From: Anaerolineae bacterium
GTDB taxonomy: Bacteria; Chloroflexota; Anaerolineae; Aggregatilineales; Aggregatilineaceae
NCBI GenBank assembly: GCA_018432315.1
Contig: JAHDLB010000001.1
Location: 124,001-188,000, forward strand
DNA length: 64,000 nt
Direction: 5' to 3'
In this document: positions 6,985 through 39,662 of the stretch, in pieces
Layout: each line of letters begins with the position of its first letter
Position numbering within the stretch: the first letter of the stretch is position 1
Translations under genes and position numbers: made by a program
Notes under the pieces: model-generated
Database searches by the model: none
Told to the model about the DNA's origin: nothing
The model's input: only the letters and a program-made list of their open reading frames with translations

Positions 6985-7243
6985 GCCCCGGCACCCCCTG
7001 GCTCACGGCTGTCGATGGTATTCCCCGCCCGGCTCACGCGCCTATGCGAGTGAGCTGAGGAATCGATTCTGCAGGTCGCCGTTATTTTACCTTAATTGTA
7101 ACTCAATCATCCCTGATATGAAAATACCCAATGCGAGCAGTTGAGCTGGTGACACGCCAGGTCGATTCCAGGGGCGCACGCAGGCGAGCATTGTGTGCTA
7201 CCATGTGGTCAATGTCCGCTCGATAGAACCACGAGGAACGATT

Positions 7244-16816: not shown

Positions 16817-19489
16817 ATGAGACAGTGGTACAACGATCTGGCGGAAAGCCTGGCGCTGGATGGCGTCTGGCAGTTTTCACTGGGCGGCGAATCCGGCTCG
16901 ATCCGGGTGCCCGGCACGTGGGAGGCGCAGGGCTACGCGCGCCGTGTGGATGGCCCGGCGGAATACCGGCGGGACGTGCGCGTCCCGGCGGAATGGGCCG
17001 GGCGGCGCGTGCACCTGCAGTTCGACGCGGTGAGCACCTACGTCGAGGCGCAGGTCAACGGCGTGGACGTGGGCGCGCATACGGGCGCGTGGACGCCGTT
17101 CGCGTTCGACGTGACGGACGCGATCCGGCCCGGCGAGGAGAACACGATCCGCCTGGAGGTCTGGAAGCCGGGCGAGCGCTTCCCGCTGCGCGAATCGCTG
17201 GCGGGCTTTCTGCCCGACGTCGCCGTGATGTTCGGCGGCATCTGGCAGTCCGCGCGGCTGGTCGCGTTCGATGGCCCGGCGCTGAGCGCGCTGCGGGTCG
17301 CGGCCAACCCGCACAACGGCGAGGTCGTCGTCCAGGCGCTGGCCGACCACGCGGACGATCTGGCCGTGGTGATCCGGATCTACGACGCGGCGGGCCGGGA
17401 GGTCGGGGGCGCCGGGGCGCCGCTGGTCGATGGCGAGCTGGGCGGCTGGACGACCCTCCGCGACTGGCGGCCCTGGAGCCCGGCGGACCCCGCGCTGTAC
17501 ACCGCCGAGGTGACCCTGCGCGACAATCACGAGGTCGTGGCGCGCATGTCGCGGCAGTTCGGCTTCCGCGAGCTGAGCCGCGAGGGGGATCGCCTGCTGT
17601 TCAACGGCGAGCCGGTCTTCCTGCGCGGCGCGCTGAACTGGGGCTGGTATCCGGACATCCTGTGCCCGGCGCCGGACGAGCGAACCATCCGCGACGAGTT
17701 CCGCCGCATCCGCGAGTTGGGCTTCAACATGATGAAGTTGTGCCTGTACGTGCCATCGCCGCGCTACTTCGAGATCGCCGACGAGGAGGGGATGTTCCTG
17801 TGGCTGGAGCTGCCGCTCTGGCTGCCGGACGTGACGCCGCAGCTCAAGCAGCGGGCCCCGGTCGAATACGCGAACATCGTCGTCGAGGCGCAGCACCATC
17901 CCTCGGTCGTGATCTACAGCCTGGGCTGCGAGCTGGAAGCGAACGTCGAGCCGGACTGGCTCGCCGAGCTGGACGGCATCGTGCGCCACTTCACCAGCGG
18001 CGCGCTGGTGTGCGACAACAGCGGATCGGGCGAGGCGTTTGGCTGCGAGGCCGACCTGGCCGACTTCGACGATTACCATTTCTACGCGGACCTGCACTAT
18101 TTCGATCCGCTGGTCGATCATTTTCGCCGCGACTGGCGCCCGCCCCGGCCCACCATCTTCGGCGAGTTCTGCGACGCGGACGATTACCGCGACCTGGACG
18201 AGGTGATCGCGGCCTTCGGCGGCGCGGAGCCGTGGTGGCTGGCCGAGCAGAACCCGCTCCACCCGCTGAGCAAGGTCGCCTACGTCGAGCAGCGCGCGCG
18301 CATGGGCCGCATCGACGTGGGCATGAGCGACCGGGAGCTTCAGGCGTTTTCGCGCCAGCAGTCGCTGGTCATGCGCAAGGCGATCCTGGAGAAGGTGCGC
18401 GCGCGGGCCGGGATGGGCGGCTACGTGATCACCAGCCTGCGCAACACGCCGCTGGCGTCGTCGTCGCTGTTCGACGACCTGGGCCGCAGCAAATACGACC
18501 CGGCGACATTCCGGCAGTTCAATGCGGACACGGTGCTGCTGCTGGACCGGAGCCGCGCCCGGCGCTGGCTGCGCAGCGGGGACCATCCTGCGCCCGCCGA
18601 GCCGTACGCCTTTGATGCGGGCGCGCCGGTGGCGCTCGACGTGATCGCCAGCCACGCCGGGCCGCCGCTGGACGGCGGCGAGCTGGCCTGGGAGGTCCGG
18701 CGGGACGGAAAAAAAACCTTCGCGCGCGGGGCGCTGCCGGTCCCCGATCCGCTGGCGAGCGGGCGCCCGCAAAGCCTGGGCCGGATCGCGTTCGACGCGC
18801 CGGACACGGGCCGTGCCGAGACGCTGCATCTCGACGTCGTGCTGCGTGCCGGGGCGGCGGAGGTGCGCAACGCGTGGCGGCTGTGGGTCTTCCCGGCGGT
18901 GACGGCGTGGCCGGACGGGATCGCGCTGCTCGACCCGGCGGGCTGCCTGGGCGGGCTGGACGACCTGGCCGCGGCGGCGCGGCGCGTCACGCGCCCGGAC
19001 GGCGCGACGCGCGTCCTGATCGCGAGCGCGCTGCCCGGCGACGCGCTGGACTTTCTGCGCGAGGGCGGGGCGGTCCTGCTGCTGCAGCGCGGCGACGCGC
19101 CGCTGCCCGCGGACGGGCTGCCGTTCTGGCGCAACTCGGTGCTGTTCATCGGCGAGCATCCCGCCATGGACGCCTTCCCGCATGCGGGGTTCGCCGATCT
19201 CCAGTTCTACGGGCTGGCGAGCGAGTGGGCGCTGAACACCGATCGCGCTGTGGCCGAGCTGCCCGAGGCGGGCGCGGCGCGCCCGCTGCTGCGCCGGCTG
19301 AGCACCAACCAGTTCACGCTGGCCGATTACCTGGTCGAGATTCCGGTTGGGCGCGGGCGGCTGATCGCCTCGACGCTGCGCTTCCAGGGCGGCGAGGGCG
19401 ACCAGCCCTTCGGCCTGCGCGATCACCGGGCCGGGCGCTGGCTGTTGTGGCACCTGCTGAGCTATCTCGGAAGGGAACCGGGTGCCTGA
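16817..19489 (+). CDS. Glycoside hydrolase family 2 enzyme
   Basis: An 890-residue GH2-type enzyme (beta-galactosidase/glucuronidase/mannosidase class) without signal peptide. The N-terminal jelly roll begins LDGVWQF and contains VPGTWEAQGYAR and VEAQVNGVDVGAHTGAWTPF. An immunoglobulin-like domain and a TIM barrel starting LRGALNWGWYPD follow. The acid/base glutamate would be E372 in YSLGCELEANV, where most GH2 enzymes have Asn-Glu, so Asn is replaced by C371. The nucleophile is probably E450 in TIFGEFCDADD. The C-terminal region (from about 600) is an extra beta-rich part. GAGGAAG precedes the ATG. It ends the carbohydrate operon and would act in the cytoplasm on imported oligosaccharide. 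The exact sugar is not predictable. Confidence 0.88.
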   Translation: MRQWYNDLAESLALDGVWQFSLGGESGSIRVPGTWEAQGYARRVDGPAEYRRDVRVPAEWAGRRVHLQFDAVSTYVEAQVNGVDVGAHTGAWTPFAFDVTDAIRPGEENTIRLEVWKPGERFPLRESLAGFLPDVAVMFGGIWQSARLVAFDGPALSALRVAANPHNGEVVVQALADHADDLAVVIRIYDAAGREVGGAGAPLVDGELGGWTTLRDWRPWSPADPALYTAEVTLRDNHEVVARMSRQFGFRELSREGDRLLFNGEPVFLRGALNWGWYPDILCPAPDERTIRDEFRRIRELGFNMMKLCLYVPSPRYFEIADEEGMFLWLELPLWLPDVTPQLKQRAPVEYANIVVEAQHHPSVVIYSLGCELEANVEPDWLAELDGIVRHFTSGALVCDNSGSGEAFGCEADLADFDDYHFYADLHYFDPLVDHFRRDWRPPRPTIFGEFCDADDYRDLDEVIAAFGGAEPWWLAEQNPLHPLSKVAYVEQRARMGRIDVGMSDRELQAFSRQQSLVMRKAILEKVRARAGMGGYVITSLRNTPLASSSLFDDLGRSKYDPATFRQFNADTVLLLDRSRARRWLRSGDHPAPAEPYAFDAGAPVALDVIASHAGPPLDGGELAWEVRRDGKKTFARGALPVPDPLASGRPQSLGRIAFDAPDTGRAETLHLDVVLRAGAAEVRNAWRLWVFPAVTAWPDGIALLDPAGCLGGLDDLAAAARRVTRPDGATRVLIASALPGDALDFLREGGAVLLLQRGDAPLPADGLPFWRNSVLFIGEHPAMDAFPHAGFADLQFYGLASEWALNTDRAVAELPEAGAARPLLRRLSTNQFTLADYLVEIPVGRGRLIASTLRFQGGEGDQPFGLRDHRAGRWLLWHLLSYLGREPGA

Positions 19490-21164: not shown

Positions 21165-21210
21165 TTGACAGCCGGCACGATCTGGACGACAATAATAATT
21201 GTATATACAA
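21165..21210 (+). promoter_or_regulatory. Promoter and autoregulatory operator of the AraR-type regulator gene
   Basis: The -35 TTGACA (21165-21170) and -10 GACAAT (21188-21193) have 17-bp spacing. The perfect palindrome TTGTATATACAA (21199-21210) covers the expected start of transcription. This is the most symmetrical copy of the motif and lies before the regulator's own gene, which supports autoregulation by that protein. Confidence 0.68.
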
Positions 21211-21252
21211 ATACACCAGGGCGATAGACAACTGTTTGAAGGGGGCTTCTGC

Positions 21253-22395
21253 ATGACGTGGGAAATCCAGCGGGGAAACGGCGTTCCCCTGTATCTGCAG
21301 GTCAGCGAGAACCTGAAACAGCGCATCTTGAACGGCGAATGGCAGCCGGGCGATAACCTGCCCGCCGAGCCGGACCTGTGCGAGGCGTTCGGCGTGGCGC
21401 GCGGGACGATCCGGCAGGCGCTCAGCAAGCTGGAGAGCGAGGGCTACGTCCGGCGCGAGCGGGGGCGCGGCACGTTCGTGATCTGGGGCGGCGAGCACGC
21501 ACGCGCGCCGGGGCTGCCCGGCAGCCAGATCGGGTTCGTGGTGCCCTACGTGCGCGACTCGTTCGTCTCGACCATCCTGCTGGGGGCCGAGCGCGCCGCC
21601 GCCGAGCACGGCCTGTCGATCCTCTTCAAGCACGTGGAGAACGATCCGCTGCGCCAGAACGAGGTGCTCGCCATGCTGGTCGCTCAGCGGCTGGCGGGGG
21701 TGGTGCTCTACCCGGTCGATTCGGTACACGCCGACTCCACAGCGCACCTGATCCGCTCCGGCTACCCGGTCGTGCTGGTCGATCGCTACCTGCGCGGGCT
21801 GCACTCCGATTACGTGATGTCCGACCATTTTGGGGGCGGGCTGCGCGCCACTCAGCACCTGATCCAGCTCGGCCACGAGCGCATCGCGTTCATCTCCTGG
21901 CGCGACCCGTCGGTGAGCCTGGAACACCGGGCGGCGGGCTTCCAGCGGGCGCTGGTCGAAGCGGGCCTGCCCTACGATCCGGCGCTGACGTGCGAGGTCG
22001 AGGGCTACCCGACGGTGGCCTCAGACGCTATCGCGGAGTTCCTGACCGAGCACCCGGAGGCCACGGCGATCTTCGCCGCCAACGACCAGATCGCGCTCGG
22101 CGCGTACCAGGCCGCGCGCCAGCTTGGCCGCCGCATCCCGCACGACCTGGCGCTGGTGGGGTTCGACAACCTGGATTTCACCATGCACCTCGACGTGCCG
22201 CTGACCACGGTCGCGCAGCCCGCCGCCGAGATCGGCCAGCAGGCCGTCAAGGCGCTGGTGCGCCGCATCAACGGGCAGGCCGACGACTGGCAGCAGATCA
22301 TCCTGCCCACCCGGCTGGTGATCCGCCGCTCGTGCGGGGCATATCTCAGGACGGACGTGCCGGCCTCGCCGGACGGAGTCAGTCTGCCGCGCTAG
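21253..22395 (+). CDS. GntR-LacI chimeric transcriptional regulator (AraR type)
   Basis: A 380-residue regulator. Residues about 8-75 form a GntR winged helix-turn-helix (LPAEPDLCEAFGVARGTIRQ, then LSKLESEGYVRRERGRGTF). Residues about 95-370 form a LacI/periplasmic-binding-type sensor domain (QIGFVVPYVRDSF; YPVVLVDRYLRG; FAANDQIALGAYQ; ALVGFDNLDFTMH). This architecture is that of Bacillus AraR, which releases operators on binding sugar. The start at ATG 21253 is chosen for GGGGG 7 nt upstream; an open frame from 21199 would run through the operator. It is the best candidate to bind the WTGTATADACAA sites before itself and four other promoters. Its effector sugar is unknown. Confidence 0.92.
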   Translation: MTWEIQRGNGVPLYLQVSENLKQRILNGEWQPGDNLPAEPDLCEAFGVARGTIRQALSKLESEGYVRRERGRGTFVIWGGEHARAPGLPGSQIGFVVPYVRDSFVSTILLGAERAAAEHGLSILFKHVENDPLRQNEVLAMLVAQRLAGVVLYPVDSVHADSTAHLIRSGYPVVLVDRYLRGLHSDYVMSDHFGGGLRATQHLIQLGHERIAFISWRDPSVSLEHRAAGFQRALVEAGLPYDPALTCEVEGYPTVASDAIAEFLTEHPEATAIFAANDQIALGAYQAARQLGRRIPHDLALVGFDNLDFTMHLDVPLTTVAQPAAEIGQQAVKALVRRINGQADDWQQIILPTRLVIRRSCGAYLRTDVPASPDGVSLPR

Positions 22396-22416: not shown

Positions 22417-23571
22417 TCACGCGTAGCGCCCGTACAGCTCGGCGGCCTCCGTCATGGCGTTGATGTTCTCCAGCGGCGTGCCGGGCGGGATGTTGCTGCC
22501 GTCCTGAATGATCAGGCCCTTGTGCGGCGCCAGCTTGTCGATCACCCGGCGAGTCGCCTCGCGGACCTGCTCCGGCGTGCCCTCGTGGATCAACATCGGG
22601 CTGACGTTGCCCAGCAGCACGACGCGGCCCGCCATCTCCTCCGCGACGCGATCCAGGTCGACCTGGTAGCCGAAGCCCTGAAACTCGTCGATCTTCAGGT
22701 CGTCGCGGAAGATCGCCAGCAGGTGGTCGGACTTGCCGCACATGTGCAGGCTGGCCCGCCCGTCGAAGTGGAAGCGCATCTCCTGGTTGTAGGGCAGGGC
22801 GAAATCGCGGAATGTGGACGCCGACAGCGACACGGCCAGATCGTCGGTCCAGGCGAAATCGACCGGCCTGGACAGGTTCATCTCCTTGACGCAGAAGTCC
22901 AGCCACTGGATCATCTTTTCGGTGACGATACGCAGCACCTCGTGCACGAAGTCGGGGCGCTCGTAGATCGCGGTGAAGGCCTCCACCTGGCCCATCACGT
23001 CGCCGGTCACGCCGAACGGGCCATCGGACGTGTTGGTCAGCGAGGGGTTGGCGCCGGGATAGAACACCGGCCCACCCTGGAACCGCACCGGGTATTTCTC
23101 GGCTACGTCGATCATGGCGCGGCGGTAGGCGACCTGCCGGGCGTTGATCCCGTTGTTCACATAGTCGAAGGCTTCCAGACGGCGCAGGTCGTCGTCGGTC
23201 TTGACCCAGCCCGCGCCCACCCACGGAATGTCATCGTCCGGGAAGTGCACCTCGCAGCCCAGGCTGCCCGCCTCGAACGTGTTCTGGAAGTCGGTCCAGG
23301 CCCCGGTCCAGGCGCCGGTGATGCTGTAGGCGTCGGTGCGGACGTTCTCCAGCAGCCATTTCTGGCACAGGATCTGCGTGCGCAGCATGGTTTCGGGATC
23401 GCTGTAGTAGTCGCGGAAGCTGACGCCCACCTGGGGCACCATCAGCCGGTGGGCGATGGCGGGGATGACCGGCACGCGGTCCGGCGTCTCGAAGCGGCGG
23501 GTTTTCTCCACGCGCTCGCGGCGCGCCTCGATCTCCTCGATCGGTACGGCAATTTCGATAATTTCGGGCAT
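22417..23571 (-). CDS. UroD/MtaA-superfamily protein (uroporphyrinogen decarboxylase-like)
   Basis: A 384-residue protein of the UroD fold that includes HemE and the corrinoid:thiol methyltransferases MtaA/MtbA. It has the zinc-type HxC motif (H276-M-C278 in SLHMCGK) seen in the methyltransferases and absent from HemE. The third zinc ligand, normally Cys in a GCGIPP-like loop, is replaced: the loop here reads QDGSNIPPGTPLENINAM (S359/N360). It is the last gene of the minus-strand operon, 133 bp after the cupin gene and convergent with the regulator. Genuine haem synthesis is unlikely; a methyl-transfer or related catabolic step is inferred. A paralogue lies at 33205. Confidence 0.8.
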   Translation of the reverse strand: MPEIIEIAVPIEEIEARRERVEKTRRFETPDRVPVIPAIAHRLMVPQVGVSFRDYYSDPETMLRTQILCQKWLLENVRTDAYSITGAWTGAWTDFQNTFEAGSLGCEVHFPDDDIPWVGAGWVKTDDDLRRLEAFDYVNNGINARQVAYRRAMIDVAEKYPVRFQGGPVFYPGANPSLTNTSDGPFGVTGDVMGQVEAFTAIYERPDFVHEVLRIVTEKMIQWLDFCVKEMNLSRPVDFAWTDDLAVSLSASTFRDFALPYNQEMRFHFDGRASLHMCGKSDHLLAIFRDDLKIDEFQGFGYQVDLDRVAEEMAGRVVLLGNVSPMLIHEGTPEQVREATRRVIDKLAPHKGLIIQDGSNIPPGTPLENINAMTEAAELYGRYA

Positions 23572-23704
23572 GTTTCACCTGCTCTGTGTGTGTACGCGCA
23601 AAACTGCCGGCCCGCGAACCGCTCGCCGGGGGGGAGAGCGGCTCGCGGCGGCAGGGACTCAGTCGATGGTTGGCGAGCGCAACGTCTCCTCCTCGCCCGG
23701 CCCG

Positions 23705-24064
23705 CTAGATCCATTGGGCGGGCCGGGTGTGCTCGTCCTGAACGTTGCCCGTGTTGACGGTCGTGTCCGGCTCGAGCAGCAGCACGTGCACCTCCTCACT
23801 GGCGACGGGCCGGTGCTCCACGCCGCGCGGGATCACGGCGAATTCGCCCTCGCGCAGCCACAGGTCGCGGTCGCGCAGTTGGATGCAGAGCGTCCCGCGC
23901 ACGACCAGGAACAGCTCGTCTTCCTGCTCGTGGTGGTGCCACACGAACTCGCCCTTCAGCTTGACCAGCTTCACGTGGAAGTCGTTGATCTCGCCGGCGA
24001 TGCGCGGGCTCCAGTACTCGTCGATCAAGGCAAACTTCTCGGCCAGGTTGACCGGTTCCACCAT
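23705..24064 (-). CDS. Small cupin-domain protein
   Basis: A 119-residue single-domain cupin. Motif 1 is VWHHHEQEDELFLVVRG (H43, H45 and E49 as metal ligands) and motif 2 is AVIPRGVEHRP (H84). The metal site therefore looks complete. AGGAGGG lies 7 nt before the ATG. It sits 12 bp after the ferredoxin gene in the diiron cassette. Similar small cupins act as sugar isomerases, dioxygenases or ligand-binding proteins. Here an auxiliary metal-dependent step on the product of the diiron enzymes is possible; the sequence does not say which. Confidence 0.85.
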   Translation of the reverse strand: MVEPVNLAEKFALIDEYWSPRIAGEINDFHVKLVKLKGEFVWHHHEQEDELFLVVRGTLCIQLRDRDLWLREGEFAVIPRGVEHRPVASEEVHVLLLEPDTTVNTGNVQDEHTRPAQWI

Positions 24065-24076
24065 GCGGTTTCCCTC

Positions 24077-24349
24077 CTAGCGTTCCAGCTCCACGTCGGT
24101 ACGGGCGAACGAGCTGCACAGCAGCCGGAACCCGTCCTCGATTTCATCCTCGTCGATGTTCAGCTCGGCGGCATATTCCGGGTCGTGCTCGACCTCGCCC
24201 GCCAGCACGCGCGTCATGCACGCCCGGCAGGTGCCGCTCAGGCAGCTATGCACCAGGAAGACCCCGGCGCGCTCGGCAGCTTCCATGATCGTCTCGTCCG
24301 GCGCGGCGTCGAAGGCAACGCCGGACTGAACCAAGTGAACGGTCGGCAC
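24077..24349 (-). CDS. Plant-type [2Fe-2S] ferredoxin
   Basis: A 90-residue ferredoxin with the CX4CX2C...C cluster motif: C36, C41, C44 (HSCLSGTCRACM) and C78 (FRLLCSS). This is the plant/vertebrate type that supplies electrons to oxygenases. The C-terminal half is acidic (LNIDEDEIEDG), as expected for docking to a reductase and an enzyme partner. It starts with GTG, with GAGGAG in the end of the upstream gene, and only 4 bp separate it from the diiron protein gene. That spacing suggests it feeds electrons to the ferritin-like proteins. No reductase is encoded nearby. Confidence 0.9.
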   Translation of the reverse strand: MPTVHLVQSGVAFDAAPDETIMEAAERAGVFLVHSCLSGTCRACMTRVLAGEVEHDPEYAAELNIDEDEIEDGFRLLCSSFARTDVELER

Positions 24350-24353
24350 GCGG

Positions 24354-25766
24354 CTACAACTCCTCGAGCACCTGTTCGTCCGCCACTACCGGCGCCCACT
24401 CGATCGCCATGCCGTCGTCGGGGATGTCGCGGATCATCCGGGCGACGACCGGGTACAGGCGGTCGAAGTACGGCGCGAGCTGCGCTTCGGGATCGGCTTT
24501 GTGGGCGGCGATGAAATCGGCCATGATCTGGCGGGCCTCGTCGGTCAGGCGCTTGAGTTCCTCGCGCCCGGCCTTGTCGTCGCCCAGCAGGTGCTTGAGC
24601 CACGTATAGCCGAAGTTGACATGGATCGCCTCGTCGGCCCAGTCATAATCCATGTCGTGCGTGCTGCCGTCGTCCTGCGCCGACTCCAGGATCTTGATCT
24701 CGATCTGTTTCGTCCCGGCGCGCAGCAGCCCTTCCTCGTAGTAGTAGAGCAGGGCCAGCCGCTGCCGGGCGGGGACGTTCCCCAGGGCATTATACAACCC
24801 ATTCGCCCAGGGGATCAGGTCCGGGACGTCCCAGCCCCAGCCTTCGAGCGCGCGCCAGCCCATCGTGCTGTGGCGCGTCTCGTCCCACGACCAGCGGGCC
24901 AGGTCCATGTAAAACGCCCACGGCTCGCCGTCCAGGTCCCACATCACGGAGGCGGGGACCTCGGCGGCCCAGATTTCGTTGAAGTGGCTGATGGCCGACC
25001 AGACCTGCATGGCGACGCGCTTGTCCAGCGCCTCGATGCGCTTCCAGGCGTCGCGCCCGGCGGTGTCGTACTTGTTCTCGTGGGGCAGGTGGAACAGCGC
25101 CGGACGCCAGCGCGCGTCGCGCTGCACGCTGCGCGGCACGTCATAGGCCGGGCGGCCCGCGCACGGGTGATCGGTCGGCGGCTCGGCGCGCCTGCCCAGC
25201 CCGTCGATCCCGCCGATGGCGTCCACCCACCGGCGCAGGTAATCGCGCCACGTCTGGTCCGGCGCGCGATCGCCCCCGCCGACGCGGCGGGCCAGCGCGC
25301 CCATGCGCTCGGCCTGGGCCAGCTTGTCGGCCAGGATGTGCCGCAGGCGGTAGATCGTCGGCGCGTCGTCGAGCGGGTCGGAGCGCTCCAGGTACGCCTC
25401 GTAGCCGGCGATCAGCGCCGGGAGCAGCACCCCATACGCGCCCGCGATGAATTCGTGCGAGTCGGTCGCCTTGGCGGCCTCGGCCAGCAGCGCCAGCACG
25501 TCCGGATCGTACTTGCGGTCAACGTCGCGGCGCGGGTAGCGCAGCTCGAGCACGCGCGTGCGCAGGACGTCGGCGTGCTGGGCCGTCTGCCACATGTCCT
25601 CGCTGAGCTGGCGCTTGAGGTCCCATTGGCTGGTCCCGACGAACCACGCGGCCAGCGTGCGCATGAGCTGGCGCTCGGCCACGTAAAACCGTTTCAGGAT
25701 GGTGGACGCGTTCTCCACCCGCGTGTGGGCGGCGGTGGAACGGGAGGGGGGGAGTACTTTCGCCAT
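24354..25766 (-). CDS. Ferritin-like diiron protein A (putative oxygenase component)
   Basis: A 470-residue all-alpha protein whose C-terminal half keeps a full R2-like diiron ligand order: E264 (HFNEIW), E296xxH299 (WDETRH), E344 or E345 (LLYYYEEGLL) and E379xxH382 (YDWADEAIH). The N-terminal part (FYVAERQLMRTLAAWFVG...EDMWQTAQHAD) matches the same region of its neighbour. It resembles the DUF455/MiaE-like and PaaA/BoxB-like ferritin families in pattern, but I cannot place it in one. AGGAAGG lies before the ATG. It is 21 bp after paralogue B and 4 bp before a ferredoxin gene, so a ferredoxin-dependent oxygenase or desaturase-type reaction is inferred. The substrate is unknown. Confidence 0.75.
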   Translation of the reverse strand: MAKVLPPSRSTAAHTRVENASTILKRFYVAERQLMRTLAAWFVGTSQWDLKRQLSEDMWQTAQHADVLRTRVLELRYPRRDVDRKYDPDVLALLAEAAKATDSHEFIAGAYGVLLPALIAGYEAYLERSDPLDDAPTIYRLRHILADKLAQAERMGALARRVGGGDRAPDQTWRDYLRRWVDAIGGIDGLGRRAEPPTDHPCAGRPAYDVPRSVQRDARWRPALFHLPHENKYDTAGRDAWKRIEALDKRVAMQVWSAISHFNEIWAAEVPASVMWDLDGEPWAFYMDLARWSWDETRHSTMGWRALEGWGWDVPDLIPWANGLYNALGNVPARQRLALLYYYEEGLLRAGTKQIEIKILESAQDDGSTHDMDYDWADEAIHVNFGYTWLKHLLGDDKAGREELKRLTDEARQIMADFIAAHKADPEAQLAPYFDRLYPVVARMIRDIPDDGMAIEWAPVVADEQVLEEL

Positions 25767-25787
25767 GATGTACCTTCCTCGGCTCGT

Positions 25788-26993
25788 TTACGCGATGCCG
25801 TGCGCGTGGCGCTGCTGCATCTTGACCGGCGTGTTTTCCAAGAGCCAGGCTTCCATCCGTTCCTTGATCTGCTCCGGCGTTTCATCGTAGCCGTAGGTTT
25901 CGAGCAGGACGGGCGTCCACTTCTGGCCCCAGCGGATGTGAAAGTTCTCGTCGCTCCAGTCGTAGCTGACCGCGGCGGCGGAGATGTCGTCGTGGATGTC
26001 TTCCCAGTGCTCGCGGTTGGCGCGCTTTTCGGGCATCCCGTTCGGCTCGATGACCGTCGTCAGCAGCGCGTACTGGTCGACGGCGGGCAGGGTCATCATC
26101 ACGTTGTAGATCTGCACGACCTGGGGCACCTCTTCGATCTTGAGGCCCAACTGCTGGATGCGCGTCTGGCCGAGCTGGCTGTGCCGGATCTCGTCCCACA
26201 GGTGGCGCGCGACGTTGTGCTGGTATTCCCAGGGCATTTCCGGCGTCATCCACAGGATGGAGCCGAGCGTCTCGGAGGCGGTCATCTCGTTCAGGTAGTG
26301 CTTGAAGCGCCACAGCCGGTGCCCTTCCGGGTCGGCCTTGCGATCCGGCTCGACGTCCTGCTCGGGGTCGAAGATCGGCCAGTCCGGCATGCGCTGGCAT
26401 TCCTTCCAGGGCAGCAGCAGCGGGCGGGCGTCCAGGTCGACGCGCGCCTCGACTTTGGGGCCGGTGCCCATGGCGCCGCCGTCGCTCTCCAGCAGGCCGG
26501 CGACCGTGTCGCGCCAGGATTCCCAGCCGGGATAGCCCTCCGCGATGGTCGGGAAGTACCGCTCCGCCCAGGCGACCTGGGCCTCGGTCTGGGCGATCAG
26601 GCTCTCGGTGACCTTCACCGTCGGGTTGTCGAAGTCCGACCAGGTGACCTCCGGATGGTTGCGGTAGGCGTGCAGCAGCGCCCGCTTGACGACCAGGTAC
26701 ACCGTCGCGATGACCTCGGCGGTGTTCTGCGCGTAGTCCAGCGCGGTGAAAACCTGCTGCAGCGCCGGGCTGAGGCCGCGCTCCGGCTGGTGATTGCGCA
26801 GCTCGCGCAGGCGCGCGCGGAGGTGATCGGCGGCGTCGGCGCTCTCCCAGATGTGCAGGCCGAACTGGTTCTTGGCTTCCCACTCGGGCACGCCGGGCAG
26901 CCAGCCGGCGAGCGTGCGCATGCACGCGCGCTCCAGGTAGGCGTACCGTTTGAGAATCTCGACGTTTTGCTCGATGGTGATGCGTTCTGACAT
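25788..26993 (-). CDS. Ferritin-like diiron protein B (paralogue of A)
   Basis: A 401-residue protein with the same layout as protein A: N-terminal helices (YLERACMRTLAGWLPG...IWESADAADHL) and a C-terminal diiron set E241 (TASETLG; E236 is also possible), E268xxH271 (WDEIRH), E316 (TTVIEPN) and E349xxH352 (YDWSDENFH). Because both copies keep all ligands, neither looks like a dead structural subunit, unlike PaaC in the phenylacetyl-CoA oxygenase. It is the first gene of the redox cassette, after a hairpin and a possible promoter. A and B may form a heteromer or act on successive substrates. No signal peptide is present. Confidence 0.75.
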   Translation of the reverse strand: MSERITIEQNVEILKRYAYLERACMRTLAGWLPGVPEWEAKNQFGLHIWESADAADHLRARLRELRNHQPERGLSPALQQVFTALDYAQNTAEVIATVYLVVKRALLHAYRNHPEVTWSDFDNPTVKVTESLIAQTEAQVAWAERYFPTIAEGYPGWESWRDTVAGLLESDGGAMGTGPKVEARVDLDARPLLLPWKECQRMPDWPIFDPEQDVEPDRKADPEGHRLWRFKHYLNEMTASETLGSILWMTPEMPWEYQHNVARHLWDEIRHSQLGQTRIQQLGLKIEEVPQVVQIYNVMMTLPAVDQYALLTTVIEPNGMPEKRANREHWEDIHDDISAAAVSYDWSDENFHIRWGQKWTPVLLETYGYDETPEQIKERMEAWLLENTPVKMQQRHAHGIA

Positions 26994-27142: not shown

Positions 27143-28030
27143 TTACTTGACCGCGCCGCGCGACAGCCCGGCGATAATCATGCGCTGGCCGGCCAGCACC
27201 AGCAGCAGCACCGGCACCACCATGAACACGCTGAGCGCGCTGAGCATGTCCCAGGGCCGGGTGTAGGTCGAGGCGTCCGACGACAGCTCGACCAGCGCCA
27301 CGCTGAGCGTCTTGGTATTGTCGCGCTGGGCGAACACCAGCGGGTAGAGCAGCTCGTTCCAGCCGATGATGAAGTTGATCACGGTCATGGTCGACAGCGC
27401 GGGCATGATCAGCGGCAGGATCATGCGGGTGAGCACCTGGAAGATGTTCGCCCCGTCGATGAGCGCCGCCTCTTCGATCTCGACCGGCACCTGCATGATG
27501 AACGACACCAGCGTCAGGATGGTGAACGGCAGCACCAGGCTGCTCATCAGGATGATCAGGCCGTGGTGCGTGTTGATCATCTTGAACTGCTGGAAGGTTT
27601 CGAACATGGGCACCAGCACCGCGATCTGCGGCAGCGCGACCGACATGATCAGCGCCATGTAGACGATGTTGCTGCCGGGGAAGCGGATGCGCGCCAGGGC
27701 ATAGGCGGCCAGCGCGGCGGCGATCACCGATACCAGCGCCGAGCCGACCGCGAACACCAGCGAGTTGCGCAGGTAGGTCAGGAACGGCACCGACTCGATC
27801 ATGTTCTGGTAGTTGTCGAGCGTCGGGTTGGCCGGGAGGTACGACGGCGGGATGCTGAACAGCTCGGTGCGCGGCGTGATCGACGACATGGCGATGTAGT
27901 AGAACGGGAAGCCGACGAACACCGCGAACACCACGAACGCGGCGTAGATCAGGATCGTGTTGCTGTGGCGGGCGAACCACGACAGGTCTTTCTTCTGGGC
28001 GTTGGACAGTCCTTCGACTGTGGCCGACAT
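27143..28030 (-). CDS. Carbohydrate ABC transporter permease, MalG type
   Basis: A 295-residue inner-membrane permease of normal length with six TM helices, starting at ILIYAAFVVFAVFVGFPFYY. The periplasmic segment carries YLPANPTLDNYQNM, and the EAA loop reads EIEEAALIDGANIFQVLTRM. It is encoded 15 bp downstream of its partner permease. The likely binding protein is the Tat-exported one at 34447 on the opposite arm of the divergon. The ATPase is not encoded here. Confidence 0.92.
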   Translation of the reverse strand: MSATVEGLSNAQKKDLSWFARHSNTILIYAAFVVFAVFVGFPFYYIAMSSITPRTELFSIPPSYLPANPTLDNYQNMIESVPFLTYLRNSLVFAVGSALVSVIAAALAAYALARIRFPGSNIVYMALIMSVALPQIAVLVPMFETFQQFKMINTHHGLIILMSSLVLPFTILTLVSFIMQVPVEIEEAALIDGANIFQVLTRMILPLIMPALSTMTVINFIIGWNELLYPLVFAQRDNTKTLSVALVELSSDASTYTRPWDMLSALSVFMVVPVLLLVLAGQRMIIAGLSRGAVK

Positions 28031-28045
28031 GGCAGCGTATCCTTT

Positions 28046-30034
28046 CTAGCCGGTGACTTCGACCCGGCGGAGCGCGTACAGGCCCAGCCCGCCGATCACG
28101 CCGACGACAGCGACGAGCGCGATACTGACCGCTGCCGCGTAACTGTAATTGAGTGAGTTGATCTCGAGGTAGATCTTCTGCGCGACCACCGTCGTCGAGA
28201 AGCCGGGGCCGCCGCCGGTCATGGCGAAGGGCAGGTCGAACGCCGCCAACTGCCACACCAGCAGGAACATGGCGGTCGTCACGATGATCGGCATGAGCAT
28301 CGGCACGGTGATGAAGCGCAGCGCGTCCAGCCAGTTGGCCCCGTCCACTTTGGCCGCTTCGTACAGGTCCTGCGACACACCTTGCAGCCCGGCGAGCAGC
28401 AGCAGCGCCGCGAACGGCGTGCTCTTCCACGTGTTGACGAACGTGATCGCGATGCGCGCGTTGTCGGGGTTGACCAGCCACTTGCCCTCATAGCCAACCA
28501 GGCGGCGCAGCAGGTCCGGGATCATGCCGAACTGGTCGTCGAACATCCAGCGGAAGCCGATCGCGGCGACGACCATCGGGATGGCCCACGGGATCAGGCT
28601 GATCGTGCGCGACAGGGCGCGCAGGCTGAAGTTGGCGTTGAGCAGGTGCGCGATCGCCAGACCCAGCGCCATCTGGAAGAACGTCGAGGCGAACACGAAA
28701 ATCACGGTGAACTCGAGGCTCTCGCGCACGACGAGATCGTTCGCCAGCCGCTCGAAATTGCGCAGGCCGATGTACTGGCGCGGCGGGAAGGCCGGGTTGT
28801 ACCGTTGCACGCTGAGCGCGACCGTCTGCAGGAAGGGGTAGAACGTGGTGAACGTCCGCAGCGCCACCGCCGGGGCGATCAGCGCGAAGGCGAGCAGGTA
28901 GCGCCGCTGTTGCAGCGACAGGTGCATCCCGCGCAGGCGCTCGGCGTAATCGCCCACCGTGCGGCGCATCCGTCGCGTGCCGAGCCGCCATTGAATCTGG
29001 GCCAGCACCCACAGCCACGCGCCGGTCCCGGCCAGCACGACCAGGGCCGCTTCCCACGCGTCCAGGTTGGCGGCGTTGCGTTCGGCGGCGATGTCGCGCG
29101 GGACGAGGCTGTAATACAACCCGGCGACGGCGGGCGCGATCAGCACCGGCATGCCGAACAGGCTGCCCAGGTCGAAGGCGGGCGCGGCCTGGAAGTTGTA
29201 CGCGCCCAGGAAGCGCACCAGCCAGCCGACCAGCGCCAGCGCCCAGGCGATCCCGCCGAGCCGCCATCCCAGCAGCGCGACCTGCTGCCGCGGCGTGGTG
29301 TTGAGCGCGCTCGCCACCCACAGGCCGAAGATGATCGGCACCAGCGCGAGAAACGCCGGGAACGAGCCGTTCGATTCGAACATCGAGCCGGGCGGGCGGG
29401 TGGCGTTCCAGCGCATGCTGCCCAGCAGCGCCACGGCGACCAGGATCACCAGCGCCAGGGTGCGCGGCCAGTCTTCCAGCAGATTCGCCAGCAGCCCCGC
29501 GGCGACGGCCAGCCCGGCGAACAGGACCAGCGGCAGGACCAGGTCGCCGTACTCGCCGATGGCGACGAACCGGACGATGGCCCACAGCCAGATGATGACG
29601 GGCACCAGCAGGACGAACGCGCTCGCTGCCGCGCTGATCCGCACCTGGGCCGGCGTGGCCGGGGCCATAAGCTGGCCGGTGGCGTCGCGCGGGGGATCGC
29701 CCGCGAAGACGACCAGCCGCCGGACGACCTGGCTCAGCGCAACCGCCAGCCCGATCCCGATCAGCAGCAGGCCGAAATCGGACCGGAAACCGGGGTTGGA
29801 CCAGATGGTATACGCCGCGCCGGGCGGCTCCTCCGGCTGGGGCACCAGCGTGCGGACGACCTCGCTGGCGGCGATCGTGCCGCCCAGCCCGGCGGCGAAC
29901 CACGCGAACGCGCTGTAGCGCTTGCGGCTCGCCAGCCACGCGATGAGCAGTGACGCCAGTGCGGCCAGCGGCCACAGGCGCGTGATCGTCACGCCCGACA
30001 CGGTGGCGAGGGCGGTATCGAGCCATTCAAACAT
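28046..30034 (-). CDS. Carbohydrate ABC transporter permease, MalF type, with long multi-TM N-terminal extension
   Basis: A 662-residue protein whose C-terminal 287 residues (about 376-662) are a complete MalF-like permease: APAVALRTFTTFYPFLQTVA, NFERLANDL, and EAA loop LYEAAKVDGANWLDAL (558-573). The N-terminal 370 residues hold roughly eight or nine extra hydrophobic segments (for example 20-33, 88-108, 139-157, 165-184, 192-205, 226-243, 262-275, 293-310, 329-345), with a charged linker RRMRRTVGDYAERLRGM before the permease. ATG 30034 is chosen over a start 16 codons upstream because AAAGGA lies 7 nt before it. The extension could be a fused membrane sensor or a second channel-like unit; I know of no role for it. 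Confidence 0.88.
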   Translation of the reverse strand: MFEWLDTALATVSGVTITRLWPLAALASLLIAWLASRKRYSAFAWFAAGLGGTIAASEVVRTLVPQPEEPPGAAYTIWSNPGFRSDFGLLLIGIGLAVALSQVVRRLVVFAGDPPRDATGQLMAPATPAQVRISAAASAFVLLVPVIIWLWAIVRFVAIGEYGDLVLPLVLFAGLAVAAGLLANLLEDWPRTLALVILVAVALLGSMRWNATRPPGSMFESNGSFPAFLALVPIIFGLWVASALNTTPRQQVALLGWRLGGIAWALALVGWLVRFLGAYNFQAAPAFDLGSLFGMPVLIAPAVAGLYYSLVPRDIAAERNAANLDAWEAALVVLAGTGAWLWVLAQIQWRLGTRRMRRTVGDYAERLRGMHLSLQQRRYLLAFALIAPAVALRTFTTFYPFLQTVALSVQRYNPAFPPRQYIGLRNFERLANDLVVRESLEFTVIFVFASTFFQMALGLAIAHLLNANFSLRALSRTISLIPWAIPMVVAAIGFRWMFDDQFGMIPDLLRRLVGYEGKWLVNPDNARIAITFVNTWKSTPFAALLLLAGLQGVSQDLYEAAKVDGANWLDALRFITVPMLMPIIVTTAMFLLVWQLAAFDLPFAMTGGGPGFSTTVVAQKIYLEINSLNYSYAAAVSIALVAVVGVIGGLGLYALRRVEVTG

Positions 30035-30166
30035 GGGGGATCCTTTCGGGTGACGCACCACAACACGGGGCAGCCGCTGCACGGTGGCAACGCGTGGAGA
30101 AAGCAGGGTCGGGCCGCCGGTCGGCCAGTGGACAGGGTGACATAAAGTAAGTTCTCATCGGACAAA

Positions 30167-30409: not shown

Positions 30410-30471
30410 CTAGGCCATCAATGCAAACGATTTTTTGCTGATATTGGCTTTACGACGAAAGGTGCTGGTTG

Positions 30472-33201
30472 ATGGGCAAGCCCCCCTATCAAGCCACGTT
30501 AGTCAGCCATACCCACTGGGACCGCGCCTGGTACTGCACATTCCAAGAATACCGCATCCGCCTGGTGCGGCTGGTCGATCGCCTGCTGCGCCTGCTGGAC
30601 GAGCAGCCCGATTTTCGCGTGTTCATGCTCGACGGGCAGATGAGCGTGCTGGAGGATTACCTCGAAGTGCGCCCCGAGCGCGCCGCCGTGCTGCAGGCGC
30701 ACTGCCGGGCGGGTCGCATCCAGGTCGGGCCGTGGTACGTGCTGGCCGACGAATTCCTTGTCAGCCCGGAGTCGCTGGTGCGCAACCTGATGGTCGGGCG
30801 CAAGATGGGCGAGCCCTACGGCGGCGTGATGCCGATCGGCTACGTGCCGGACGGTTTCGGCCACATCGCCCAACTGCCGCAGATTCTGCGCGGCTTTGGC
30901 ATCGACAACGCGTTTTTCTGGCGCGGGATGGGCGCCGAGGGCGACCGGCTGGGCACCGAGTTCGAGTGGCGCGCGCCGGATGGCTCGTGCGTGACGGCGA
31001 TCCTGATGCCCTGGGGCTACCACAACGTCACCAATCTGGGCTACGGCATCCACTGGGGCGACGTGTCGCAGATGGCATTCGACTGGGACCTGGCCCAGCA
31101 GAAGATCGAGCGCGCCATCGACAAGCTCAAGCCGATGACCAACACGCGCACGCTGCTGCTGATGAACGGCATCGACCACGCCGAGGCCGAGCCGCGCATC
31201 CCGGAGGTAATCCGCCGCGCCAACGCCGCGCTGGACGACGTCGAGATCCATCACGGCACGCTGGCCGAGCACCTGGAGCGGGTGCGGGCGGCGGGCGTCG
31301 ATCTGCCGCGCTTCGAGGGCGAGTTCCGCTGGGGCCGCTATTCCGAGATCCTGCAAGGCGTGTACTCGACGCGCATCCACCTCAAGCAGGAGAACCACGC
31401 CACCGAGACGCTGCTCGAACGCTACATGGAACCGCTGGCGGCGCTGGCGTGGCTGGCGGGCGGCGACGTGCCGGAGGGCACCCCCGCGCTGATGTGGCAG
31501 GCGTGGCACTGGCTGCTGCTCAACCACCCGCACGACGATATGTACGGCAGCGGCATCGACGAGGTGCACCACGAGATGCTCTACCGCTTCAGCCAGGCGC
31601 GCCAGATCGCCGGGGCGCTGGTGCGCGACAGCCTGCGCGAAGTGGCGCGGCAGGCCGACATGACCGCCCAGACCGGCACGCCGGTGATCGCCTTCAACCC
31701 GCTGGGCTGGGACCGCGCCGAAGTGGCCGAAGCGCTGATCGAGTTCGAGTTCGACGATCCGCACGCGGGCGACTTCCAACTGGTGACCGGCGCGGGCGAG
31801 GTCGTGCCGCACCAGGTGATCGCGGACGAGGAGCGCTTCTGGATGGAGGTGCTCAAGCCCAACCGCAAGCGCTGCGTGCGCGTCCTGGTCCCGGTGACGG
31901 TGCCCGCGCTGGGCTACACCACGCTCTACGCGCAGCCGGCGAGCGGAAGCCCGCCCCCGGCCACCGATCTCGTGACCGGCGAGCGCGGGGCGGAGAATGC
32001 CTACGTGGCGCTCGCCATCGAGGTCGACGGCGGCCTGACGATCACCGACAAGACAACCGGCCACGTCTACGCGGGCCAGCACCATTTCGCCGATGTCGAA
32101 GACACGGGCGACGAATACACGTTTTGCCCGCTGACAGAGCACAGCCAGACGATCACCACCGCCGGGCGCGCGGCCCAGGTGGAGCGCGTCGAGGCCGGGC
32201 CGTGCCGCGCGGCGTTCCGCGTGACGTGGATGCTCGACGTGCCGGAGGGGCTGGCCGACGACCGCCGCCGCCGGTCCGCGCAAACGGTGCCGCTGCCGAT
32301 CACCGTGACGATCATGCTCTATGCCGGGCAGCCGGGCGTCTTCATCACCACCGAGATCGACAACCGGGCGCGCGACCACAAGCTGACGGTCAACTTCCCG
32401 ACCGGGCTGCGCGTCGCGCAGGCGCACGTCGACCAGTCGTGGATGGTTGCCGCGCGCGATCTGGCGCTGCCGCCGTCCGAGGGCTGGGTCGAGGACCCGA
32501 CGCCGCTCATGCACCAGCGCGCCTTCACCGACCTGAGCGATGGCCGGCGAGGGCTGGCAATCCTCAACCGGGGGCTGCCGTCGGTCGAGGTGGCGGAGGA
32601 CGGCACGATCGCGCTCACCCTGCTGCGCAGCGTGGGCTGGATGTCGCGGGACGATCTGTGGGTGCGCCGCATCGCCGCGGGGCCGCTGGTGCCCACGCCG
32701 GGCGCGCAGTGCATCGGGCCGCACCGCTACGAGTACGCGATCCTGCCCCACGCGGGCGACTGGCGGAACGTCTACCCGGCGGCGATGAACTACAACGCTG
32801 CGGTTCACGCGCGCCGGGCGGACACGCATCCCGGCCTGGTGCTGCGCGAGATGAACATCACCCGCGACGACCCGGCGCTGGTGACGTCCATCCCCTGGCC
32901 GCGCGGCGGGCACCTGCCGGACACGTTCAGCCTGCTGCGGATCGAGTCGCCCGCGCTGGTGCTCAGCGCCGCCCGGCGGAGCGAGCGCGACACGCTGATC
33001 GTGCGCTGCTACAACATCACGCGCGAGCTGGTCGAGAGCGCGATCACCTGCGGCCTGCCGCTGGCGGGAGCGTACCGCGCCAACCTGGCCGAGGAGCGCG
33101 GCGACTCCCTGCCGGTCCGTGACGGGCGCCGCGTGGACGTGGCGGCGGGGCCCGGCCAGGCGATCACGGTCGAGCTGGTGTTCGCCGGGCAGGAGGGCTG
33201 A
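30472..33201 (+). CDS. Glycoside hydrolase family 38 alpha-mannosidase
   Basis: A 909-residue GH38 enzyme. The N-terminal catalytic domain has the zinc-binding start VSHTHWDRAWY (H13, H15, D17) and the segment GYVPDGFGHIAQLPQIL, whose Asp is the expected nucleophile/metal-ligand region. A later NHPHDDMYGSGIDEVH supplies the second metal histidine motif. The C-terminal half is the usual large beta-sandwich part. The pattern is closest to bacterial MngB-like mannosidases. No signal peptide is present, so it acts on imported mannosides. ATG 30472, behind GAAAGG, is preferred to the TTG one codon earlier. It heads a three-gene operon behind an operator-bearing promoter. Confidence 0.93.
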   Translation: MGKPPYQATLVSHTHWDRAWYCTFQEYRIRLVRLVDRLLRLLDEQPDFRVFMLDGQMSVLEDYLEVRPERAAVLQAHCRAGRIQVGPWYVLADEFLVSPESLVRNLMVGRKMGEPYGGVMPIGYVPDGFGHIAQLPQILRGFGIDNAFFWRGMGAEGDRLGTEFEWRAPDGSCVTAILMPWGYHNVTNLGYGIHWGDVSQMAFDWDLAQQKIERAIDKLKPMTNTRTLLLMNGIDHAEAEPRIPEVIRRANAALDDVEIHHGTLAEHLERVRAAGVDLPRFEGEFRWGRYSEILQGVYSTRIHLKQENHATETLLERYMEPLAALAWLAGGDVPEGTPALMWQAWHWLLLNHPHDDMYGSGIDEVHHEMLYRFSQARQIAGALVRDSLREVARQADMTAQTGTPVIAFNPLGWDRAEVAEALIEFEFDDPHAGDFQLVTGAGEVVPHQVIADEERFWMEVLKPNRKRCVRVLVPVTVPALGYTTLYAQPASGSPPPATDLVTGERGAENAYVALAIEVDGGLTITDKTTGHVYAGQHHFADVEDTGDEYTFCPLTEHSQTITTAGRAAQVERVEAGPCRAAFRVTWMLDVPEGLADDRRRRSAQTVPLPITVTIMLYAGQPGVFITTEIDNRARDHKLTVNFPTGLRVAQAHVDQSWMVAARDLALPPSEGWVEDPTPLMHQRAFTDLSDGRRGLAILNRGLPSVEVAEDGTIALTLLRSVGWMSRDDLWVRRIAAGPLVPTPGAQCIGPHRYEYAILPHAGDWRNVYPAAMNYNAAVHARRADTHPGLVLREMNITRDDPALVTSIPWPRGGHLPDTFSLLRIESPALVLSAARRSERDTLIVRCYNITRELVESAITCGLPLAGAYRANLAEERGDSLPVRDGRRVDVAAGPGQAITVELVFAGQEG

Positions 33202-33204
33202 TCG

Positions 33205-34386
33205 ATGGCCGGAATGACCTCGCGCCAGCGGATGCTGACCGCGCTCACCGGCGGCGTGCCGGACCGGCTGCCGGTCACGACGCATCACGTCATGACGTAC
33301 TTCCTGGACACGTACCTGGACGGCATTTCTTACCACGAGTTCTTCGACCGCTTTGGGCTGGACGCCATGCTGTGGACCGTGCCCTACAAACCCGACGAGT
33401 CGCAGGGCGAATACTTCGATCCGAACCAGACGTTCATCCACCCGCTGGACCACACGCACCGCGTCGTGTCGGACGACTGGCGCATCGAGACGGAGCGCAT
33501 CCCGGACGCGCAGTACACGACCACGCGCTACAACTTCGTCACGCCCAGGGGCACGCTGTCGATGGTCTTGCAGGGCAACCAGTACACCGATTGGGTGGTC
33601 GAGCCGCTGGTCAAGCAGAAGCGCGACATCGACCTGATCGCGGAGTACGTGACGCATCCCAAGTGCGACGTGGAGGCCGTCAACCGCCGCGCCGAGGCGT
33701 TCGGCGAGCGCGGGTTGGTGCGCGGCCACATCTGCTATTTCGACGTGTACGGCCAGCCCGGCTGCTGGCAGGATGCCGTCGAGCTGGTCGGCACCGAGCG
33801 CCTGATCCTGGAGACGTACGACGATCCGGAGTGGGTCCACGAGCTGATCAAAATCCTGCAGGCGCGCAAAAAGACGTTCATCCGCTCGCTGGAAGGGGCA
33901 CGCTATGACCTGCTGGAGTTGGGCGGCGGGGCCGCGTCATCGACGGTCATCTCGCCGAAGTTGTTCGACCAGTTCGTCGCGCCCTACGACGCCGAGCTGA
34001 TCGCGCTGGCGCACGCGGTCGGCCAGCGGATCGTCTACCACACGTGCGGCGGCATGATGCCGCTGCTGGAGCGCATCGCGGACATGAACCCCGACGCGAT
34101 GGAAACCTTCACCCCGGCGGACATGGGCGGCGACATGCGGCTGGCCGAGGCCAAGGGGCGCATCGGCGACCGCGTGTGCTTCATCGGCGGGTTCGACCAG
34201 TTCCACTACTTCACCGGCTGCACCCCGGAGCAGACTCGCGCCGAAGTGCGCCGCTGCTTCGAGGAAGCCGGGCCGGGCGGCGGGTATATCCTCAGCCCGT
34301 CCGATCACTTCTTCGACGCCGAGATACCGCTATTGGAAGCGTTCGCCGGTGAAGCGCGCCGCTGCGTGTACGATGGAGGCTCGTAA
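33205..34386 (+). CDS. UroD/MtaA-superfamily protein (paralogue of the 22417 gene)
   Basis: A 393-residue UroD-fold protein starting MAGMTSRQRMLTALTGGVPDR, an N-terminal pattern typical of the family's non-haem branch. It keeps the HxC motif (H279-T-C281 in IVYHTCGGMMP), while the distal zinc-loop cysteine is replaced (YILSPSDHFFDAEIP). It begins 3 bp after the mannosidase stop, so the two are tightly co-expressed. HemE function is unlikely given the context. Corrinoid- or thiol-dependent methyl transfer is possible, but no corrinoid protein is encoded in the window. Confidence 0.8.
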   Translation: MAGMTSRQRMLTALTGGVPDRLPVTTHHVMTYFLDTYLDGISYHEFFDRFGLDAMLWTVPYKPDESQGEYFDPNQTFIHPLDHTHRVVSDDWRIETERIPDAQYTTTRYNFVTPRGTLSMVLQGNQYTDWVVEPLVKQKRDIDLIAEYVTHPKCDVEAVNRRAEAFGERGLVRGHICYFDVYGQPGCWQDAVELVGTERLILETYDDPEWVHELIKILQARKKTFIRSLEGARYDLLELGGGAASSTVISPKLFDQFVAPYDAELIALAHAVGQRIVYHTCGGMMPLLERIADMNPDAMETFTPADMGGDMRLAEAKGRIGDRVCFIGGFDQFHYFTGCTPEQTRAEVRRCFEEAGPGGGYILSPSDHFFDAEIPLLEAFAGEARRCVYDGGS

Positions 34387-38440: not shown

Positions 38441-38579
38441 ACCGAGGAGGATTGAGACATAGAAGGAGGACCGTATCGAAACTGAGCGCTGTTTCGACCG
38501 ACCGGGCCGGGCGCCTGTCGCGGCGCCGGTGAGGAACGTGAGCATCATTCGTTACTTGAGCGAAAGGATTGTTAGCCCC

Positions 38580-39596: not shown

Positions 39597-39612
39597 CCGG
39601 ACCGTGCCAACC

Positions 39613-39649
39613 GTGGGGCCGGGGGCGGAGAAGTTGCCTCCGGCCTCAC
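39613..39649 (+). terminator. Intercistronic hairpin after the nucleoside-binding-protein gene
   Basis: GTGGGGCCGGGGGC (39613-39626) can pair with GCCTCCGGCCTCAC (39636-39649) along 14 bp with two G-U pairs and a 9-nt loop. No U-tract follows. Like the hairpin at 11504, it lies between a binding-protein gene and the membrane genes and may set their expression ratio. Confidence 0.55.
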
Positions 39650-39662
39650 TTGCGAGGACTCT

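Follow-up and report, generated by a model that had tools for sequence, protein, structure and literature searches.

A DUF455-family candidate diiron protein with a constant ferredoxin partner in a GH38-centred glycoside regulon of an Anaerolineae bacterium

The genome of an Anaerolineae bacterium (assembly GCA_018432315.1) contains, in a 64,000-nucleotide stretch of contig JAHDLB010000001.1 (hereafter the window, in whose positions all features are numbered), five consecutive minus-strand genes, two of which encode tandem ferritin-like proteins of the DUF455 family that are candidate diiron enzymes. In the order of transcription the genes encode B (25788..26993, 401 amino acids), A (24354..25766, 470 amino acids), a [2Fe-2S] ferredoxin (24077..24349, 90 amino acids, GTG start), a cupin (23705..24064, 119 amino acids, Pfam Cupin_2) and UroD1 (22417..23571, 384 amino acids), a protein of the UROD/MtaA superfamily with an HxC motif. 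The gap between B and the MalG-like permease gene upstream of it is 149 bp, and the following gaps are 21 bp (B-A), 4 bp (A-ferredoxin), 12 bp (ferredoxin-cupin) and 133 bp (cupin-UroD1). A first-pass annotation, made from the letters of the window, had the coordinates, strand and order of these genes right, and it proposed that they form one redox cassette for an oxidative or demethylating step on an imported sugar or glycoside.

Both A and B pass the gathering cut-off of the Pfam profile for DUF455 (PF04305), an uncharacterised ferritin-like family, by a marginal difference (37.3 and 35.3 bits, respectively, against 34.3). The match is partial, covering profile positions 62-211 of 247, and lies in the C-terminal halves of the two proteins; the sole further Pfam match of either protein at E-values up to 1 was a sub-threshold match of A to DUF892. 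Among the families that the first-pass annotation had named for comparison, DUF455 was matched and the others were not: at E-values up to 1 no match of A or B was listed for PaaA/PaaC, MiaE and AurF (Pfam) or for BoxB (NCBIfam). A and B are 29% identical. In a quick tree, with an arbitrary root and some long branches unsure, A and B each form a clade of their own, with a Shimodaira-Hasegawa-like approximate likelihood ratio (SH-aLRT) support of 99, and other relatives stand in between; a recent tandem duplication of A and B is therefore rejected.

The ligand candidates are E236, E268xxH271, E316 and E349xxH352 in B and E264, E296xxH299, E344 or E345 and E379xxH382 in A, so both proteins have four carboxylates and two histidines in the order E/ExxH/E/ExxH. 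The alignment comprised 60 A/B-like Chloroflexota proteins including A and B (2 of 62 were left out as repeats), and 25 of its rows are only 22-37% identical to A or B. Across these 60 members the set E/DExRH/E/DExxH is near-invariant. In B numbering, E236, H271, E349 and H352 are present in 60/60 sequences, as are D267 and D348, E268 is present in 59/60, and the E316 column holds Glu in 56/60 with three Asp and one gap. Conservation of at least 93% is found in 25 of 401 columns, and all seven candidate ligand columns (E241 of B included) are among them. Since the set is kept among divergent members of the family, the site is under selection. The first-pass annotation had likewise given both proteins a full diiron-type set, which holds, but it paired E241 of B with E264 of A. 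The residue homologous to E264 is E236, and the invariance of this position makes E241 improbable as the homologous ligand; E241 corresponds to E269 of A (Glu in 57/60, Asp in 2/60). The spacing in B also fits E236, with the two further Glu 32 and 33 residues ahead of their ExxH motifs. Either E344 or E345 may serve A as the third acidic ligand; in three A orthologues residue 345 is Asp and E344 is retained.

Distant relatives of the DUF455 type share these ligands and are encoded in other catabolic operons (L116, L117, L118, L068, L064 and L071), where a neighbouring dihydrodipicolinate synthase (DHDPS)-family aldolase was confirmed in L117 and kinases, racemase-like genes and ABC genes were recognised by eye. 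A plasmid search gave one DUF455 record, a Geobacillus plasmid protein in which the same DExRH and DExxH motifs are visible by eye and whose neighbourhood is not telling.

AlphaFold2 models of A and B are of good quality and all-helical, with a predicted local distance difference test (pLDDT) score of 81.3 and a predicted TM-score (pTM) of 0.86 for A and 87.9 and 0.89, respectively, for B. The N-terminal halves form a second ferritin-like bundle that aligns with ferritin-like folds, including those of (D/E)ExRH diiron enzymes, with Z of about 14.5-17 (VIA-align). These halves have no conserved ExxH, and some ExxH string occurs there in 19/60 members. As the VIA-align rows span the N-terminal halves, the fold of the C-terminal halves is deduced from the Pfam match and the order of the helices. 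Sequence searches of the PDB with B and with an A+B profile returned nothing meaningful, and Foldseek gave no match at E 0.001 or better. B resembles the O2-activating diiron-carboxylate enzymes of the (D/E)ExRH type, such as toluene/methane monooxygenase hydroxylases, R2-type proteins and aldehyde-deformylating oxygenase, in that it has two DExxH motifs and two further Glu. Unlike these enzymes, A and B form a tandem bundle whose conserved ligands are confined to the C-terminal half, and neither has a profile or sequence match to them.

The ferredoxin scores 56.5 bits against Pfam Fer2 (cut-off 21), as a plant-type [2Fe-2S] protein does, and the pattern Cx4Cx2C...C was present in 9/9 orthologues read. 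Of the 154 genomes of the order, 16 have an orthologue at a threshold of E 1e-12 or better, and an A orthologue directly adjoins the ferredoxin gene in all 16. A and the ferredoxin are thus a real pair, and the direct succession noted in the first-pass annotation extends to every genome in which the ferredoxin was found. In one further genome (G442) A lies at a contig end and no ferredoxin was found. The pair is also encoded away from B: A is distant from any B in G463, G466, G467, G441 and G473, and a sugar isomerase/epimerase-like gene follows A-ferredoxin in four of these (the region is cut in G441). Compared with the DUF455 family in general, A is set apart by its constant ferredoxin neighbour, and both A and B by their place in glycoside regulons. 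The simplest reading of these data is that A would be a ferredoxin-fed diiron monooxygenase; B may work without a dedicated electron donor.

The glycoside regulon around the five genes, which the first-pass annotation had recognised, is borne out; it includes a GH38 gene, ABC sugar genes and a GntR/LacI-type regulator. ATP-binding cassette (ABC) sugar permeases similar to MalG (27143..28030) and MalF (28046..30082) are encoded on the minus strand, the former upstream of B in the same direction. On the plus strand lie genes for the regulator (21199..22395), which combines a GntR-type DNA-binding with a LacI-type ligand-binding part, a GH38 alpha-mannosidase or mannosylglycerate hydrolase-like enzyme (30469..33201; N-terminal domain 135 bits, within its Pfam family), UroD2, a second UROD/MtaA-superfamily protein (33205..34386), an ABC solute-binding protein of family F04 with a twin-arginine translocation (TAT) signal (34447..35739) and a GH2 glycosidase (16817..19489). 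A separate, purine-salvage-like cluster adjoins at 36686-41255, with an adenine-deaminase-like amidohydrolase, a PnrA-like nucleoside-binding protein and an ABC ATPase.

We compared 24 loci with B, namely the window, L003-L023, L114 and L115; the counts are lower bounds, as many of the contigs are cut off close to B. GH38 is the most constant neighbour (20/24 loci, within 10.5 kb), followed by UroD1 and the F04 binding protein (17 each), the regulator (16), UroD2 (10), A (8), GH2 (6) and DUF2961 (4). DUF2961 is glycoside hydrolase family GH172. Both names occur in PMC8605356 and PMC10115798. The ferredoxin is near B in 7/24 loci by gene calls and in an eighth (L007) by tblastn. The cupin occurs in the window only (1/24), which rules it out as a conserved component; a small open reading frame after a distant B-like gene in L055 looks cupin-like by eye and matched no Pfam family. 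A scan for B gave 22 loci, of which 21 are in contigs that carry the label Chloroflexi, Anaerolineae or an order belonging there. L024, a B fragment of 57 residues (81% identical) in a metagenome-assembled genome (MAG) labelled Kiloniellales, probably a mis-binned Chloroflexota contig, was not counted among the 24 loci.

Among the 154 genomes, B orthologues were found in 23 (two of them as fragments, the other 21 complete or almost complete) and UroD1 in 20 (E 1e-60 or better). A is present in 15 of the 23 B genomes, at 64% identity or more, and absent from 8, and UroD1 is present in 18, at 68% or more (in G433 across several frames). B is present in 18/20 UroD1 genomes versus 5/134 others (Fisher 4.5e-17, not corrected for kinship). 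Each part also occurs without others. B stands without A and UroD1 in G460 and G537, A-ferredoxin without B in G485 and the fragmentary G473, UroD1-GH38 without A or B in G432 (where the contig ends soon after) and MalFG-UroD1 without B in G414; in G485 the regulator and GH38 are divergent from A-ferredoxin and UroD1 is lacking as well. The nearest relative, L003, whose B is 85% identical, has at 6195-6524, between intact B and UroD1 genes, just the two ends of A-ferredoxin: 26 codons from the start of A (54%) and 23 from the end of the ferredoxin gene (78%), with the middle gone. Its genome (G416) contains no other A. If the assembly is right, L003 lost A-ferredoxin as one block and retained the rest. 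The separate occurrence of A and B, these remnants and the separate clades indicate that there are three modules grouped around GH38 (A-ferredoxin, B and UroD1) and not one machine.

This pattern bears directly on the proposal that A, B and the ferredoxin are one heteromeric oxygenase, with the cupin and UroD1 as further steps of a five-gene pathway. In its favour, the genes lie side by side, with short intervals or called overlaps between them, in the window and in relatives such as L006, L009, L014 and L115. Yet the absence of A from 8/23 B genomes, the presence of A-ferredoxin without B in two, the single cupin, the loss in L003 with B and UroD1 intact and the separate clades of A and B largely refute it, and we consider it very unlikely. 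An A-B-ferredoxin complex is rejected likewise, because A and B also occur apart. The five-gene cassette of the first-pass annotation falls with the test of joint conservation (cupin in 1/24 loci, A in 8/24), but its argument that A and B are no catalytic/structural pair of the PaaA/PaaC type is upheld, since both keep their ligands and B is found without A in 8/23 genomes.

UroD1 belongs to the URO-D superfamily of Pfam (122.1 bits) and is far below the cut-off of the MtaA/CmuA profile (NCBIfam TIGR01463; 72.7 bits against 235.4). HxC is retained in 16/17 rows, row 17 being a cut copy of another and one further row repeating a contig. In L006 UroD1 is split across reading frames (7024-8167), by sequencing error or decay. 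A corrinoid protein gene adjoins the regulator in 6/24 loci: L108 (identical to L005), L109, L110, L008, L010 and L015. Beside it lie MtaB in L108 and L008, a RACo-type activase in L108, L109 and L110, and a homocysteine S-methyltransferase in L109, the one locus tested for it; neither MtaB nor an activase adjoins the corrinoid protein in L015, and the contig of L010 ends there. These relatives possibly have a methyl-to-methionine route inside the sugar regulon. In the window's own genome, on contig C51 (L105 1501-3349), a corrinoid-protein gene is followed after about 40 bp by the gene for a UroD2 paralogue (70%). In the 23 related genomes with B, UroD1 and an activase occur together in 16, UroD1 only in 2, an activase only in 1 and neither in 4 (Fisher 0.008); the exceptions are G441 and G442, both fragmentary, and G537. 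Taken together, methyl transfer is supported as a theme but not proven as a reaction.

The corrinoid genes raise another possibility, that A and B are protective dimetal proteins of the peroxidase, catalase or O2-reductase type that shield an O2-sensitive corrinoid protein and its activase. Their ferritin-like fold, the usual company of B and UroD1 and a ferredoxin that could feed an O2 reductase are in line with it. However, no RACo was found in 6 of the 23 genomes with B, 5 of which also carry A (three of these six assemblies are fragmentary), and two different proteins of this kind would be odd in one sugar regulon. We therefore regard a protective role as unlikely. With RACo present, A occurs in 10/17 genomes, which leaves a weak trend towards genomes without it. 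Mutual exclusion of A-ferredoxin and corrinoid genes held in the first 22 loci and is rejected, as wider regions show that G463, G466 and G467 carry both.

The hosts are aerobic-capable, with a COX1 match in 16/16 genomes tested (15 over the cut-off), which makes O2 chemistry possible. The oxidative or demethylating step suggested in the first-pass annotation thereby gains support from the hosts and from the methyl-transfer genes near some relatives, while the five-gene unit to which it was attached does not stand; its core idea, candidate diiron enzymes in glycoside use, is sound. We tentatively propose a GH38-centred glycoside regulon with three separately inherited modules that act on the same substrate class. 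The genes, the conserved ligand set, the A-ferredoxin pairing, the independence of the modules and the corrinoid genes of relatives are observed; we infer the metal, the use of O2, the substrate and all of the reactions. The way in which the modules group around GH38 suggests a substrate in common, probably a methylated one. Most likely it is an imported and probably mannose-type glycoside that GH38 would cut; mycobacterial methylmannose polysaccharide as that substrate is speculation. A and its own ferredoxin would be a DUF455-family diiron monooxygenase that draws electrons from the ferredoxin and oxidises the substrate, in the simplest case by hydroxylating an O-methyl group that then leaves as formaldehyde. 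B could be another dimetal oxygenase or oxidase of the DUF455 family, one that works without a ferredoxin of its own. UroD1 and UroD2 would be methyltransferases linked to corrinoid proteins and would remove methyl groups without oxygen; in some relatives they are accompanied by a corrinoid protein, MtaB, a reductive activase or a homocysteine methyltransferase.

Alternatively, the sugar itself or its aglycone may be what A and B attack as diiron oxygenases or oxidases, by hydroxylation or by cleavage of a C-C or C-O bond. The genes for methyl transfer would then form a branch of the regulon of their own. Genome G460 (L011), which has B and GH38 without A, UroD1 or activase, would agree with this, as would the distant DUF455-like relatives in other catabolic operons such as that of L117, but the strong co-occurrence of B and UroD1, uncorrected for kinship, argues against it. 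We hold this alternative to be possible, if somewhat doubtful.

Several points weigh against the three-module proposal with its methylated substrate. HxC and a later Cys are the zinc ligands of MtaA, and UroD1 and UroD2 have Ser or Asn at the place of the later Cys (register by eye). No corrinoid-system gene is present in the regulon of the window, a search of its genome for MtaB, run without a control, gave nothing, and MtaB was seen in 2 loci only. The activase test covers 23 related genomes, with many activases away from the regulon. UROD paralogues are numerous (up to 19 matches per genome), so that finding one beside a sugar transporter is not unusual. A, B and UroD1 are all together in 12/23 genomes, the L003 deletion is known from a single assembly, and absences are soft because MAGs are incomplete. 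GH38 is a weak guide to the substrate, with 492.8 bits against a cut-off of 1138 for mannosylglycerate hydrolase (NCBIfam PRK09819), and no ferredoxin reductase or formaldehyde-handling gene was recognised among the annotated regulon genes.

Literature searches on DUF455, on diiron and ferritin-like proteins and on Anaerolineae with UroD and mannosidase found no such system among the papers listed, and the nearest precedents come from two directions. In porphyran use, a cytochrome P450 and a ferredoxin oxidatively demethylate 6-O-methyl-galactose (PMC10033563). The locus studied here would resemble that system in having a ferredoxin-fed oxygenase in a glycan-use locus with a methyl ether as proposed target; the oxygenase there is a P450 and here a diiron-type protein with a putative substrate and reaction. 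It is this precedent, together with the corrinoid genes, that leads us to favour methylated substrates. Corrinoid methyltransferase systems such as MtaABC and the mlp clusters (PMC10418091) share with our loci the UROD-fold proteins and, in some relatives, the corrinoid protein, MtaB and activase. They differ in that UroD1 and UroD2 lie in a GH38 sugar regulon, have HxC only and are both below the MtaA/CmuA cut-off.

That A and its ferredoxin are a diiron oxidative demethylase of methylated glycosides, the first DUF455 enzyme with a known reaction, beside an O2-independent corrinoid (UroD) module for the same methyl groups, is in this full form improbable. If true, it would give one facultative host both an aerobic and an anaerobic way into one substrate, and a non-haem diiron route would be added beside the P450 route for methyl sugars. 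For DUF455, to which the literature searched assigns no reaction or function, A provides a member with a constant ferredoxin partner and a metabolic context, and because of this partner and the definite metabolic setting its function would be testable with three proteins.

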